Positions 2,523 to 7,664 of a stretch of 23,449 bases of DNA are shown here, one piece after another. Made by a program: the position numbers and the translations under genes. Location of the stretch: positions 1 through 23,449 of IMG/VR virus record IMGVR_UViG_3300025120_006270. One strand, written 5' to 3'. The stretch is from a virus. Each line of letters begins with the position of its first letter. Within the stretch, counting starts at the first letter, position 1. The notes below the pieces were generated by a model, which ran no database searches, was not told where the DNA came from, and worked only from the letters and a program-made list of their open reading frames with translations.

Positions 2523-3614
2523 TCAGGATTGAACCTCCGCGTCAATTGGCATTTGGAAATCCGCATCAACTTTGTCATACAGTTCCAAGAATGCCTGCTT
2601 GGTTTCATCATCAAAACGATTGACACAAACCTGAATTGCTTTTGCCTTATCATTGAAGATACTGTAGGCACGAATGATATGGACTAAGCGGCGGGTGCTA
2701 ATGACCTCTTCAATACCACCATCATAGAACGTCTTACGGATAATGTCAGCCCAGTCAGCAAGGCGCTTACAGAAGTCAGGAGCAACCACTTTTAGATCGC
2801 GAGCAACATTTTCAAGAATCTTGATTTCTTGTGTAGGATTAGGATACTCTTGCTCAAAGGTTACAGGGAATCTCTCAAGGAACGCCTCGTTAAGCACGTT
2901 AGTTCCAATAAATCGCCCGTCCTCGGATCCTTTACCTTTAGTGTTTGCCGTAGCAAATACTTGGAATCCATCGGCAGGGATGATGAACTTTCCGATTTTC
3001 TTAAGAAAAACTCCTTTACCCTCAAGAATAGATTGAAGACAGAGGATTTTGTTTGAGGCAAGGTCGATTTCGTCAAGAAGCAACACGGCACCACGCTGCA
3101 GTGCTTCAATGACTGGTCCATTGTGCCAAACGGTTTCACCATTAATAAGACGGAAACCGCCAATGAGATCATCCTCATCAGTCTCTACTGTGATGTTGAC
3201 TCGGATGAGTTCCCGACCCAATTGAGCACATGCTTGTTCAACCGAGAAAGTTTTTCCATTACCAGAGAGTCCTGTAATAAATGTTGGATAAAATAAATCG
3301 GACTTAATAATTTTTTTAATATCAACGAAGTTACCAAAGCTGACGAAGGTATCATCTTTACGAGGGATAAGGTTTTGTTCAATCGCTGGAATTGCAGCAG
3401 GAGCACTATATGTTACTTCTAGTTCTTCCACTGTTTCTTTTGTTACTTCAAGATTCCACTTACCGCGACTAATTTTGTAGTCAGCAAGTTTGTTAGTGAC
3501 AGTTTGATAGTTCGCACCATTCATAGCACACCAGGCACGAATATCAGCAGCAGCAACAGACTCACCATACAATCCCTGAAGAGAAGTGCGAATGAATTCG
3601 GGTGAGAGAGACAT
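2523..3614 (-). CDS. cobS: CobS-like MoxR-family AAA+ ATPase
   Basis: This 363-aa protein is the cyanophage version of CobS, the ATPase subunit named after aerobic cobalt chelatase of the cobalamin pathway. It has a helical N-terminal region of about 75 residues, then an AAA_5/MoxR core: Walker A GLSGNGKT at residues 115-122, Walker B AVLLLDEID at 176-184, sensor 1 ATANT with N224, and the arginine finger in EAFLERFP with R248. All key ATPase residues are present. CobS works with CobT, a VWA protein; a CobT-like gene lies just upstream in this genome, but the CobN subunit that holds the metal site is absent from the window. The pair could therefore act as a chaperone or remodelling machine rather than as a chelatase. 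The ATG at 3612-3614 follows a terminator and a -10-like box. Confidence 0.9.
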   Translation of the reverse strand: MSLSPEFIRTSLQGLYGESVAAADIRAWCAMNGANYQTVTNKLADYKISRGKWNLEVTKETVEELEVTYSAPAAIPAIEQNLIPRKDDTFVSFGNFVDIKKIIKSDLFYPTFITGLSGNGKTFSVEQACAQLGRELIRVNITVETDEDDLIGGFRLINGETVWHNGPVIEALQRGAVLLLDEIDLASNKILCLQSILEGKGVFLKKIGKFIIPADGFQVFATANTKGKGSEDGRFIGTNVLNEAFLERFPVTFEQEYPNPTQEIKILENVARDLKVVAPDFCKRLADWADIIRKTFYDGGIEEVISTRRLVHIIRAYSIFNDKAKAIQVCVNRFDDETKQAFLELYDKVDADFQMPIDAEVQS

Positions 3615-3636
3615 GTTGTTTGTTTGTACTGAAGTT

Positions 3637-3642
3637 ATTATA
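3637..3642 (-). promoter_or_regulatory. Possible -10 box for the cobS-gp44 operon
   Basis: Read on the minus strand the sequence is TATAAT, a perfect host-type -10, in the short gap between a strong terminator and cobS; the start codon lies 22 bases downstream. A good -35 is not visible at 16-18 bases upstream, where the terminator hairpin sits. The position suggests the start of a new transcript, but the promoter is inferred from the -10 alone. Confidence 0.4.
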
Positions 3643-3645
3643 TAC

Positions 3646-3669
3646 GAAAAAGGAGGTTATGAAACCCCC
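3646..3669 (-). terminator. Rho-independent terminator after the CobT-like/52-aa unit
   Basis: On the minus strand GGGGGTT pairs with AACCTCC (7 bp including one G-U pair) around a TCAT loop, followed at once by TTTTT. It begins a few bases after the stop codon of the 52-aa gene and before cobS, so it separates two transcription units. Confidence 0.85.
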
Positions 3670-3675
3670 TAGTGG

Positions 3676-3834
3676 TCAGTCTCCAGATCGTCCATATTTG
3701 AACTTCATCGCTTGGAGAAACCACGCATCGGTTAGACGCTTTGGTCCATCCATAATGATTCGTGCTTGTTTATCGTTTACAGAAGGATCTTGTAATGCTC
3801 TAACCTTCCACTCTGGTAACTGATTATTACTCAT
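3676..3834 (-). CDS. 52-aa basic small protein downstream of the CobT-like gene
   Basis: This reading frame starts at the ATG at 3832-3834, which overlaps the TGA of the 706-aa CobT-like gene as ATGA, and ends at the TGA at 3676-3678 just before a terminator. It reads MSNNQLPEWKVRALQDPSVN, then DKQARIIMDGPKRLTDAWFL, then QAMKFKYGRSGD. It is probably all helical, mildly basic, and ends with aromatic residues. The exact coupling and the placement between the CobT-like gene and cobS suggest a role linked to that pair, for example as an adaptor, but that is inference. I recognise no domain. The overlap and the terminator directly after the stop argue that it is a true gene. Confidence 0.75.
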   Translation of the reverse strand: MSNNQLPEWKVRALQDPSVNDKQARIIMDGPKRLTDAWFLQAMKFKYGRSGD

Positions 3835-5951
3835 GCCACCAAAGAAATAAACTCGCCTAATACTTTCTTATTTAGTTTTTTGACTTTTAATGATTTAACA
3901 AAAGCACTCTTAATCTTTGCTTTGCTGGCACCTTCATCAACTTCAAACTCTGAATCTTGAGACAGAGAATTTGAAGATAAACCAAAGTATGCATCATACC
4001 CAGAGTTTTTAATACAAAAACTCTTTTCTTTCCTCCACTCTTTTTGAATACGTTCAAATTCAGCTTCACCAGGATTATTATGAATACGCATAAAGTTTCC
4101 AACATCACGAGAAGCAAGAACACGCATACCAATAAAGTTCACATCAGAGAACTTATCCTTAAGATTACGCAGCATCACATTAGTAAACTCATAATATGAA
4201 TATCCCATCTTATATGTCGTTCCAAGTTTACGATCACGTAAAATAGTATTGCCTAGATCAATACGCTTATGCCCAAGAAAAGGATCAGGATCATTCTCCC
4301 AATAACGTTTGATTTCTTTATATTGTGCGAGAGCATTTGCCTCACCATCAGTCAAGACAATACACTGAATTTTTTGCAGTTTATTATCACGCTGAAATTT
4401 TGGAAGAATTTGATGAAGACAAATAAGAGATTCATTTAAAGGAGTTCCTGAAAGACTAAGACGATCAGGCCAAGCATAAGAAGTTGAATATGAACGTCCA
4501 AAAGAATAAGCGAGTCGCCAAATACTAACCATTTGCCTTTCCATTTCTTTGCCAGATACTTTACTGGAAAGAATATTCATAAGATTAAAGTCATTTTCAA
4601 CAACAAATAAACCTTCTTTCTTTTCAAAATGAGGAATAAGATTCGCTGCAATATCTTCTCCATTTTTGCCAATATGCTTACGATTCCACTCATTAGTGAA
4701 TGCATAGACTTCAAAAGGAATGTTGACCTTTTTACAGAACCAAACAAGATTAAACAATTGCTTACAGGTATCAGTCATGACATTAGACATGGATCCAGAC
4801 CAGTCAAGAACAAATACTAGACCATGGTTCTTGCCATCAGGAAGAACAGTAACTTTCTTGAACAGATCTTCATTGTATTTGTAAGTATGAAGATTAGACG
4901 TATCAAGGATACCAGTGCGAGCAGTTGATGCGCGGGCATATGAGTCTGCTGCCTTGCGACATTCAAACTCTTTCACTAAGTAATTGACTTCTTTCTGTGC
5001 ATTACGTTTAAATTTAACAAACTCCTGATCTGGATTTTCAAAGACAGGAGTTTCAAACTGATCATAACGAGACCACCACCAATTGATGTAATCATGAACA
5101 TCAGCGTTACTGGCAATTATGGTGTCAAGATTGACCTTTGGAACTTCAAGATAAACAGTATCACTTGAGTATTGATTGATAAGATCTTTAATGTTGTCGC
5201 TGAGAGAATCAGCAGTTTCGACATTAAGGTCATCTTTTTTGTTAGACTGAAAATCTTGATCAGAGGAGATAGGTTCTTGAGACTCATCTACTTTATCATC
5301 AGATTCATCTCTGACTTTCTCTTTTGCATCCTCATCAATCATCTCTGATGTAGGTTGCTGATTATCTGTTTTATTATCAGGTTTCTTTGCGTCCTCATCA
5401 TGTTCCTTCTTACAGTACAGATACAATTCTTCAGCAACTCCCAATACATCATCAAACGTTTCTGTCTCAGAAATCTTTTGAATGATTATTTTTTCTTCAG
5501 GTGTTTTGAAGCAGCAATCTATAAAATTACCAATCTTAAAGTATAGATTTGCACGATCAGCAAGATTGAGATCAGCAACATTGCTGTCAGATATAGAGAA
5601 AAAGTCCTCTTCTTGTAATTCCTTATAGCCATGGTAAAAAGTTTTTCCTAATCCAGCATATTTACGCTTCATCATCTTTTCAATTCTAGCATCCTCCACC
5701 ACATTCACAAACTGAGGAGGAATTACTACTTTCTCTAACCAGTTTTCATCGGGTGTAAAGAGTGCATGACCAACCTCATGTCCCACCAGAAGGTCGTATA
5801 CGGTGTTGCTTGCCTTGTCCCACATGGGAAGAGTTAAGACACGGGTGTGGACGTTAAAGCAGGCAGTTTCGCATTGCTTGTGCTCCACAATCAAATCTTC
5901 GGTGGCAAGAAGTTTAGCGAGTTGGGATTTGATTTCGTGCTTAACTGTCAT
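3831..5951 (-). CDS. CobT-like protein: zincin metallopeptidase motif plus von Willebrand A (MIDAS) domain
   Basis: Counting from the ATG at 5949-5951 this is 706 aa. The N-terminal part has the zinc-metallopeptidase motif HEVGH at residues 58-62, followed about 20 residues later by NVVEDARIE (83-91), which could supply the third zinc ligand. Residues 185-260 are acidic and low in complexity, a likely linker. From about residue 375 there is a von Willebrand A domain with an intact metal-ion site: DWSGS (D383, S385, S387), T503 in SGTPLNE, and D535 in LTDGEA. This order is that of CobT and related VWA proteins that partner MoxR/CobS ATPases; cobS is the next large gene. A GTG start 13 codons upstream is possible but would overlap the promoter-like region, so I prefer the ATG. 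It is either a protease or peptidase-derived scaffold; the sequence does not decide. Confidence 0.88.
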   Translation of the reverse strand: MTVKHEIKSQLAKLLATEDLIVEHKQCETACFNVHTRVLTLPMWDKASNTVYDLLVGHEVGHALFTPDENWLEKVVIPPQFVNVVEDARIEKMMKRKYAGLGKTFYHGYKELQEEDFFSISDSNVADLNLADRANLYFKIGNFIDCCFKTPEEKIIIQKISETETFDDVLGVAEELYLYCKKEHDEDAKKPDNKTDNQQPTSEMIDEDAKEKVRDESDDKVDESQEPISSDQDFQSNKKDDLNVETADSLSDNIKDLINQYSSDTVYLEVPKVNLDTIIASNADVHDYINWWWSRYDQFETPVFENPDQEFVKFKRNAQKEVNYLVKEFECRKAADSYARASTARTGILDTSNLHTYKYNEDLFKKVTVLPDGKNHGLVFVLDWSGSMSNVMTDTCKQLFNLVWFCKKVNIPFEVYAFTNEWNRKHIGKNGEDIAANLIPHFEKKEGLFVVENDFNLMNILSSKVSGKEMERQMVSIWRLAYSFGRSYSTSYAWPDRLSLSGTPLNESLICLHQILPKFQRDNKLQKIQCIVLTDGEANALAQYKEIKRYWENDPDPFLGHKRIDLGNTILRDRKLGTTYKMGYSYYEFTNVMLRNLKDKFSDVNFIGMRVLASRDVGNFMRIHNNPGEAEFERIQKEWRKEKSFCIKNSGYDAYFGLSSNSLSQDSEFEVDEGASKAKIKSAFVKSLKVKKLNKKVLGEFISLVA

Positions 5952-5978: not shown

Positions 5979-5983
5979 CCAAA

Positions 5984-6003
5984 CCCCCACCTTGTGGCGG
6001 GGG
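5984..6003. terminator. GC-rich hairpin between the 60-aa gene and the CobT-like gene
   Basis: CCCCCACC and GGCGGGGG form an 8-bp stem (one G-U pair on the minus-strand transcript) with a 4-base loop, ACAA on the minus strand. It lies about 35 bases after the stop of the 60-aa gene. The tract after it on the minus strand is TTTGGTATT, weaker than a normal U-run, so termination may be partial; it might also act as an mRNA-stabilising hairpin. Confidence 0.65.
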
Positions 6004-6038
6004 TATTAGGTGACAGTTCTCCAATTGGTTGGTCTCGG

Positions 6039-6327: not shown

Positions 6328-6948
6328 TTAACCCTCTGGATATAAAACTTCAAAATCCTTTACATAAAGTTGTTTAATATTGTCAATCAGTCTATCAGTC
6401 TTTACTAATTTTTTGGTTTCATTGGTGGACAGTTTTTTATATGGCACATCTTTCATTACAAATTCTATATCAAGTGTCTCACTCATCCATTTTTCAAAGT
6501 CATCATCAAATCCCCACTCTAGTTTCCAGATGTTTGTTTTAGATGAAATAAAATCCATCTGTGGTCTAAACCAATTCGCACCTTCAGTAAGTGGAAAGTT
6601 CTCAAGCATCATACCAAACATCATAGGGTCTTCCATAACTTCTTGAATATCATCGCCATACATTCTTGTGAGAAAAATAGAGGTTGATATAAATCTATCG
6701 ATGGGATTTCTTACGACTGTAATGTGAGGAATATCAGAGACATCAAAGTGCTTTTCATACAACTCTTTATGAAAGTGTGCGGGTTCAATACCATCAACAC
6801 TTTTCCAAATAAATTGACTTTCTAATTCAAAATTATTAAGTTTAATATTTTCAGTAAAAAATCTTCCTGCAGTTCTTGGTATATGAATAAACAGAAACTT
6901 TTTTTCAGGATCAGGAAAGTTTCTAATAGTATGACGATAGACTGGCAT
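6328..6948 (-). CDS. Sulfotransferase-family protein
   Basis: The 206-aa product looks like a small sulfotransferase that would move sulfate from PAPS to a hydroxyl, most likely on a carbohydrate. The N-terminal FLFIHIPRTAGRFFTENI (near residues 18-35) is the 5'-phosphosulfate loop pattern of the type 2 sulfotransferase families, where a Lys is more common than the R25 found here. The second site, VVRNPIDRFIST (78-89), gives the Arg and Ser that bind the 3'-phosphate of PAPS. The protein is short for the family, but both cofactor sites are present. The start overlaps the stop of the epimerase gene as TAATG, so both are one unit at the tail of the gp55-gp47-gp46 operon. The substrate is unknown: host surface glycan, or a phage glycan, is possible. 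Confidence 0.8.
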   Translation of the reverse strand: MPVYRHTIRNFPDPEKKFLFIHIPRTAGRFFTENIKLNNFELESQFIWKSVDGIEPAHFHKELYEKHFDVSDIPHITVVRNPIDRFISTSIFLTRMYGDDIQEVMEDPMMFGMMLENFPLTEGANWFRPQMDFISSKTNIWKLEWGFDDDFEKWMSETLDIEFVMKDVPYKKLSTNETKKLVKTDRLIDNIKQLYVKDFEVLYPEG

Positions 6949-7664
6949 TAAACAGTATCAAAAATATCTACAGTAGGAAACCATCCAATACTCTTAAGTC
7001 TTGAGATATCTGCTTGATTGTCCATTCTTTCACCAGGAGTATCCTCTACAAGAGGTAAGTGACCCATATCCATTACTTTAGCAAGTTTCTTGACAGACAC
7101 TGACTTACCTGTTCCAATTGTCACAGGACCAGTAATACTAGATGATGCCAGATAATGAATAGCACGACATACATCTTTAACATGAATCCAATCACGCTTA
7201 TGGTTCGTGACATACTTTGCAGTCTTATCTTCAAGCATCCTATACATCATATTAGGACGACTGTTAGGACCATAGACTGTTGTAAACCTCATGCCAACTG
7301 AATTTGGAGGAGCCATGACTTCATTAATCCATTTAGTCATAGCATATGGATTCTCCCAGTAATCTTCCTCTACTGCACTTGAAGAGGCATACAAAAGTCT
7401 TGTGTTTGTCTTTCTACACCACTCAAACAACTTCTTTGCTTTGACTACGTTGTTCTCATAATAAAGTTTTGGTTCTTTTAGACTCTCTCTAATATCAGCA
7501 TACGCTGCAAGGTGAATGATGAGATCATAATTACCACCAGAAAAGTCTCCAATATCATCAGGATAGTCAATGCCATCAACATTTACAAAACCTAAAGTCT
7601 GTTGCCAATCTTGAAAAACATTACGACCAATAAAACCATTATGACCTGTAACTAAAACTTTCAT
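6948..7664 (-). CDS. NAD-dependent sugar epimerase/dehydratase (extended SDR)
   Basis: The product should be a nucleotide-sugar epimerase, dehydratase or reductase. The NAD-binding loop GHNGFIG is at residues 7-13, the active-site pair is Y107 and K111 (YAMTK), with Ser residues at 94-96 (ASSSA) in the expected place, and MRFTTVYGP is the usual substrate-side motif. At 238 aa it is shorter than common family members (about 300-330), and the end GWFPTVDIFDTV suggests loss of the last C-terminal part, with the catalytic half intact. It shares ATGA with the end of gp46 and TAATG with the sulfotransferase, which ties the two to a carbohydrate-modifying role. Such enzymes are often laterally moved and carried by cyanophages. 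Its precise substrate cannot be told from sequence. Confidence 0.85.
   Translation of the reverse strand: MKVLVTGHNGFIGRNVFQDWQQTLGFVNVDGIDYPDDIGDFSGGNYDLIIHLAAYADIRESLKEPKLYYENNVVKAKKLFEWCRKTNTRLLYASSSAVEEDYWENPYAMTKWINEVMAPPNSVGMRFTTVYGPNSRPNMMYRMLEDKTAKYVTNHKRDWIHVKDVCRAIHYLASSSITGPVTIGTGKSVSVKKLAKVMDMGHLPLVEDTPGERMDNQADISRLKSIGWFPTVDIFDTV

Follow-up and report, generated by a model that had tools for sequence, protein, structure and literature searches.

Does the cobS gene of marine cyanophages serve vitamin B12 synthesis, or does it encode the motor of a different machine? The question is raised by a locus in IMG/VR virus record IMGVR_UViG_3300025120_006270, of which positions 1 to 23,449 were analyzed (the window, 23,449 bases). 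The window, all of whose genes lie on the minus strand, is part of a T4-like marine cyanophage genome; among named phages, Synechococcus phage Bellamy is closest to it (81.5% for the VWA protein and 84% for the ATPase). It encodes a CobS-like MoxR AAA+ ATPase close to a protein with a putative zinc-site domain and a VWA domain. Among the core genes of cyanophages, cobS ranks as a "vitamin B12" auxiliary metabolic gene, and it serves as an indicator of how viruses affect B12 in the ocean. It has been described as a cyanophage core gene (PMC3037559), and its function in phages has been stated to be unknown (PMC9983427, PMC11288001). We consider it probable that the pair is an ATP-driven MoxR-VWA remodelling machine of T4-like phages with a metallopeptidase domain, and that it is no cobalt chelatase. 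The features concerned are these:

3831..5951, minus strand: zincin-VWA protein, 706 amino acids; phrog_459 "peptidase" (E 8e-265); found in 463 phage records; AlphaFold2 predicted local distance difference test (pLDDT) 80, predicted template modelling score (pTM) 0.71
5679..5780, minus strand: zinc-site region; HEVGH, residues 58-62 (5780-5766), and NVVEDARIE, residues 83-91 (5705-5679)
4347..4805, minus strand: metal-ion-dependent adhesion site (MIDAS) of the VWA domain; DWSGS, residues 383-387 (4805-4791), T503 (4445-4443) and D535 (4349-4347)
4197..4343, minus strand: strand-rich insertion, residues 537-585, directly after MIDAS D535; predicted strands 543-547, 558-562, 569-573 and 578-581
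3676..3834, minus strand: 52-amino-acid protein; phrog_869; its start overlaps the VWA stop
2523..3614, minus strand: CobS-like MoxR AAA+ ATPase, 363 amino acids; phrog_249 (E 3e-133), AAA_5 (E 4e-17), CbbQ_C above cut-off
3249..3272, minus strand: Walker A of the ATPase, GLSGNGKT, residues 115-122; sequence motif

The initial annotation had given the three open reading frames these positions, had noted that the VWA gene and that of the 52-amino-acid protein are coupled by ATGA, and had named the motifs of the zinc site and the MIDAS with T503 and D535; all of this is correct. The VWA protein begins with the ATG at 5951, as it does in phage Bellamy; translation could also start from a GTG at 5990.

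The VWA protein and its ATPase partner

The zinc site in the N-terminal domain of the VWA protein had been noticed in the initial annotation, and its invariance among relatives strengthens that observation. H58, E59 and H62 are conserved in 97/97 of the relatives that cover the site, out of 103 aligned, and E86 in 98/98 of those that cover it in the same alignment. Together these residues form the gluzincin-type signature of HExxH plus a downstream Glu, in which E86 is, as judged from the sequence, a candidate third zinc ligand. The HExxH motif alone is weak evidence because 445 of 20,000 shuffles of the VWA protein contain it by chance, and it is the invariance that carries the weight. Codons at the zinc-site and MIDAS residues differ freely by synonymous change among the relatives. 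AlphaFold2 models the N-terminal 191 residues (pLDDT 88, pTM 0.84) as three strands that lead into the HExxH helix (49-65) and then into the helix that holds E86 (79-97). Strands followed by a HExxH helix and a Glu helix are the layout of gluzincins, and from this model a zincin fold of the domain is likely. The top of the Foldseek list, where all matches are weak, is mostly of zincin type (ArdC, jannalysin, selecase, abylysin, IrrE/PprI, Wss1 and aminopeptidases). The minigluzincins jannalysin and selecase share the strand-helix-helix zincin layout (jannalysin at probability 1.00 over 67 columns with a nonsignificant E of 0.17) and differ in being small stand-alone peptidases.

In the full-length AlphaFold2 model the N-terminal domain is joined by a disordered linker (191-239) to the VWA domain, whose five MIDAS residues are invariant in 103/103 aligned relatives. 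A sequence search with the VWA family against solved structures gave no match. The VWA model has three significant fold matches in the PDB, and all three are the NorD VWA domain in NorQ-NorD complexes. In NorD a "finger" is inserted into the AAA+ pore (PMC13036017), and the strand-rich insertion at 537-585 is, on the strength of the model and by analogy, a candidate counterpart of it.

The ATPase has the complete MoxR-type AAA+ set of Walker A, Walker B (VLLLDEI, 177-183), sensors and arginine finger, as had been read from the window before, and N224, R248 and R308/R309 are invariant. Among eight phages, G115, G118, G120 and K121 of Walker A do not vary and the last position is T or S. Its profile matched midasin, CobS, NorQ and CbbQ among solved structures, and its gene is adjoined by that of a VWA partner with an intact MIDAS, which is the mark of a MoxR-VWA pair. 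Residues 1 to ~60 of the ATPase (window 3440-3614) appear, by sequence impression, to form a small helix-turn-helix-type domain that is absent in the Ochrobactrum phage relative.

A proposed machine and its closest alternative

In NorQD the VWA domain sits in the AAA+ ring like a plug, and the presumed target-binding site is the MIDAS motif (PMC9976466, PMC13036017). By analogy with NorQD, we propose that the CobS-like ATPase would build an AAA+ ring, that the VWA domain would dock the partner onto this ring and that the MIDAS metal site may bind a target protein. The N-terminal domain of zinc-metallopeptidase type, in which HExxH...E is intact, would then be the working head, supplied with a motor and a target-binding arm, and would most probably cleave or trim the protein that the motor has opened. 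Our best guess for the target is a phage or host protein of the replication stage, because the genes sit in a block of replication and late-transcription genes, away from the head and tail genes. The phage pair and NorQ-NorD are alike in having an AAA+ ring partner and in their domain order: a separate N-terminal domain and a disordered linker come first, and a VWA domain with a MIDAS forms the C-terminal part. They differ in that the N-terminal domain of NorD is unconserved and confers target specificity (PMC9976466), whereas that of the phage protein has an invariant HExxH...E, and in that the phage pair comes without a nitric oxide reductase target.

Some observations weigh against this proposal. 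Foldseek found no match in the PDB for the N-terminal domain at E 0.001 or better. HExxH has been lost in two related pairs, of an Acinetobacter phage-plasmid (QEVAK) and of Pseudomonas phage nickie (SEISK), both of which still hold the pair and the MIDAS motif; proteolysis is therefore not essential across the wider family. Furthermore, the ATPase profile matches the solved CobS at E 5e-37, a clear kinship with true CobS, and genomes of the Prochlorococcus/Synechococcus family encode CobN/ChlH-type proteins in 61 of 61 cases and no CobS, with the exception of one phage contig. Given this kinship and such hosts, a helper role together with host CobN could be imagined in cyanobacteria.

The alternative that survives best is a MoxR-VWA chaperone that works without proteolysis, comparable to NorQD, RavA-ViaA or CbbQO, in which the zinc domain would be only structural or target-binding. 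Persistence of the pair and the MIDAS after the loss of HExxH in two relatives argues for it. A MoxR-VWA pair is also found in Acidianus two-tailed virus, which we take to be p618-p892. This archaeal virus is a viral precedent for such a chaperone, its pair being tied to tail assembly, unlike what we propose here (system as cited in PMC7159879), and its ORF892 is a weak structural match (E 0.017). The known MoxR-VWA pairs are likewise remodellers or metal-insertion chaperones (PMC9976466, PMC13036017). We nevertheless regard a purely non-proteolytic chaperone as unlikely, since the T4-like clade shows no variation in the catalytic Glu or in any of the three presumed ligands, and a structural role needs no such invariance.

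Cobalt chelation and the B12 label

Liu et al. (2021, PMC8651126) paired cobS with cobT, called the partner "mistakenly annotated as a peptidase" and proposed that viral CobST hijacks host CobN, so that the two viral proteins would drive a mosaic cobaltochelatase as its motor and raise the output of B12 during infection. The homology of the ATPase to CobS and the presence of CobN/ChlH-type proteins without CobS in the cyanobacterial host family speak for this hypothesis. The tests of the chelatase reading speak against it, and we hold it to be quite improbable. CobN (PF02514), the subunit with the metal and corrin site, is absent from the window, as the initial annotation had stated, and a search of 13 complete pair-bearing phages and phage-plasmids found it in none of them (0/13). 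The ATPase scores 71.5 bits on the curated CobS model TIGR01650 against a cut-off of 558.55, and the VWA protein of the window matches neither CobT family (PF06213 or PF11775); among 41 of its relatives, two reach PF06213 at only E 0.018. The partner also retains a zinc site that is missing from cellular CobT, where HExxH was found in none of 14 proteins. The CobN-CobS-CobT system is like the phage pair in its homologous ATPase and two-gene logic, and PF06213, the CobT N-terminal family, also covers the proteins of pHCM2-type phage-plasmids; in the other respects just given the two systems are unlike. The Caulobacter vibrioides control genome presents a separate case, with matches to CobT and CobS and none to CobN/ChlH, that is, a cellular CobST without CobN.

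The hosts point in the same direction, since some phages with the pair infect hosts that lack CobN or do not make B12. SAR11, the host clade of Pelagibacter phage HTVC008M, is B12-auxotrophic (PMC9296465). Escherichia coli, the host of one pair-bearing phage-plasmid, is among the control genomes that lack CobN, and a 3.7-Mb Nonlabens assembly with the pair has no CobN either, where the phage contig could be a contaminant. A cobS-bearing virus predicted to infect SAR86A, a lineage without cobalamin genes, has been called curious (PMC12965618). It had been proposed earlier that cobalamin would aid ribonucleotide reductase (RNR; PMC2984593). We reject a supply of B12 for class II RNR because pair-bearing phages carry class I enzymes: the small subunit of the B12-independent class I RNR is encoded in 12 of the 13 pair-bearing genomes, and class II RNR is above its cut-off in none of the 13. 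Thus, the preference for a MoxR-VWA machine over a chelatase in the initial annotation stands, given the missing CobN, the failure of the CobS and CobT models, hosts without B12 synthesis and the NorD fold, whereas the role that it gave to the 52-amino-acid protein does not.

Least probable of all is a chaperone that inserts metal into a metalloenzyme of the phage, such as the di-iron subunit of its class I RNR, given that large phages commonly have class I RNR and that the invariant HExxH would be left unexplained. To our knowledge, T4 has an RNR without this pair, which also counts against such a chaperone. In its favor are the 12 genomes that encode a class I small subunit and the insertion of iron by NorQD (PMC13036017). 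A Rubisco-activase-like role, as in CbbQO, is rejected as a general function because the pair is also found in pelagiphage and other phages of non-autotrophs.

The genes were already known and the MoxR label was already in use: the ATPase of cyanophage S-CREM1 carries the annotation "MoxR family ATPase", and a word count of the S-CREM1 paper gave "MoxR" 14 times and "VWA", "cobS" and "metallopeptidase" 0 times. A literature search that combined CobT with zincin or metallopeptidase gave, among the matches listed, no paper treating both. What is added here is a set of arguments, brought together, that favor a zincin-VWA-MoxR machine and oppose a B12 role. The evidence points to "peptidase" as the better label for the partner and makes the B12 label of cobS doubtful. 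If the proposed machine is real, many claims from metagenomes that viruses encode cobalamin synthesis need another look, and a conserved phage machine becomes testable with simple point mutants.

Distribution, descent and neighboring genes

The tblastn search that found the VWA protein in 463 phage records found the ATPase in 519, and the cyanophage counts are the same for both genes (365 Synechococcus, 61 Cyanophage and 24 Prochlorococcus records). The T4-like portal protein, taken as a yardstick, has matches in 381 Synechococcus and 62 Cyanophage records, so that T4-like cyanophages carry the pair almost without exception. The VWA gene precedes the ATPase gene, adjacent and on the same strand, in nearly all loci with both, and unrelated phages and phage-plasmids show this arrangement too. 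The window holds a T4-like gene set (portal, capsid, late sigma factor gp55, gp46/gp47 and sliding clamp gp45) with a neighbor order that matches P-SSM2, and the pair lies between gp46 and gp45 here as it does in HTVC008M and in Ochrobactrum phage OC. In Stenotrophomonas phage DLP6 it has another position, beside DNA polymerase, UvsX and primase-helicase. Less similar pairs, which also have replication genes alongside, occur in Rhizobium phage RHEph10, Pseudomonas phage nickie, Vibrio phage JPW and pHCM2-type phage-plasmids. Bacterial and archaeal genomes were scanned as well and yielded 27 loci, of which 20 adjoin T4-core genes. In the assembly of a Nonlabens xiamenensis isolate, NZ_RMVE01000006.1 (188,235 bp) encodes gp45, gp46, gp47, gp55, uvsW and uvsY together with the pair, and looks like a T4-like phage genome within, or contaminating, a flavobacterial assembly.

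The distances of the VWA protein and the ATPase follow those of gp45 and gp46 (correlations 0.92-0.96); the pair is a phage core module that has descended vertically and not a recent capture of a host metabolic gene. The correlation between VWA and ATPase distances (0.95) was considered as a sign of interaction and rejected, as that with gp46 is equal or higher (0.96); it reflects vertical inheritance only. No close host-chromosome homolog of the ATPase was found, CobS being absent from 60 of 61 host-family genomes. The one remaining match, in the Prochlorococcus single-cell genome AG-418-C09, lies on a contig of 189,106 bp (189 kb) that is itself cyanophage, probably from an infected cell.

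The relation to cellular CobT is indirect. The T4-like proteins share a homologous zinc domain with the "CobT" proteins of phage-plasmids (hhalign 96%, E 1.8e-9), and the pHCM2-type proteins match the CobT family PF06213 at E 7e-33 and keep HEVAH. Cellular CobT aligns with the zinc site lost, and direct profile links are weak: that from the T4-like zinc domain to cellular CobT is not significant and was discarded, leaving a connection only via the phage-plasmid proteins. The Acinetobacter phage-plasmid and phage nickie are intermediates with a broken site. The pHCM2-type pair resembles that of the window in gene order, in the DNA-replication genes alongside, in an intact zinc site (HEVAH...LEDVFIER) and in the homologous N-terminal domain; it is unlike it in that its VWA domain strongly matches CobT_C, which the T4-like one does not. 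We advance tentatively the bolder hypothesis that T4-like marine phages universally have an ATP-powered MoxR-VWA metalloprotease with a replication-stage target of the phage or the host, and that cellular CobT is a relative in which the protease site was lost, the B12 subunit then being a retired protease partner.

About 995 plasmid records match the CobT-like protein of RHEph10, many of them ~110-kb phage-plasmids of enterobacteria and Acinetobacter. In the three of these plasmids that were read, the CobT-like gene lies beside a MoxR-type ATPase and dnaE under the labels CobT, porphyrin biosynthesis or hypothetical. The "porphyrin biosynthesis" ATPase of Staphylococcus phage 812 has a neighbor with neither HExxH nor DxSxS by eye, and it was not used as evidence.

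The initial annotation had suggested that the 52-amino-acid protein is an adaptor, which we reject. Its homologs occur in 251 cyanophage records, and among the matches listed most lie at a distance of ~8-10 kb, next to the tail-completion gene gp3; the gene is missing between the pair in P-HM1, P-SSM4, HTVC008M and the Ochrobactrum phage. It is probably a mobile neighbor and no conserved part of the machine.

Two terminator-like hairpins flank parts of the locus, both of them consensus matches only:

5983..6004, minus strand: hairpin in the gap between an upstream 60-amino-acid gene and the VWA gene; 9 pairs, 7 of them G-C
3651..3670, minus strand: hairpin in the gap between the 52-amino-acid gene and the ATPase gene; 8 pairs

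The T4-like late-promoter core ATAAATA has 10 sites in the window, which is not above chance, and none inside the pair. Between gp46 and the VWA gene, genes for an NAD-dependent epimerase and a sulfotransferase occupy 6328-7664, and the same gap in P-SSM4 and P-HM1 holds little or nothing. After the clamp gene, positions 450-1312 encode SpeD (S-adenosylmethionine decarboxylase) and a DenV-type pyrimidine-dimer glycosylase.

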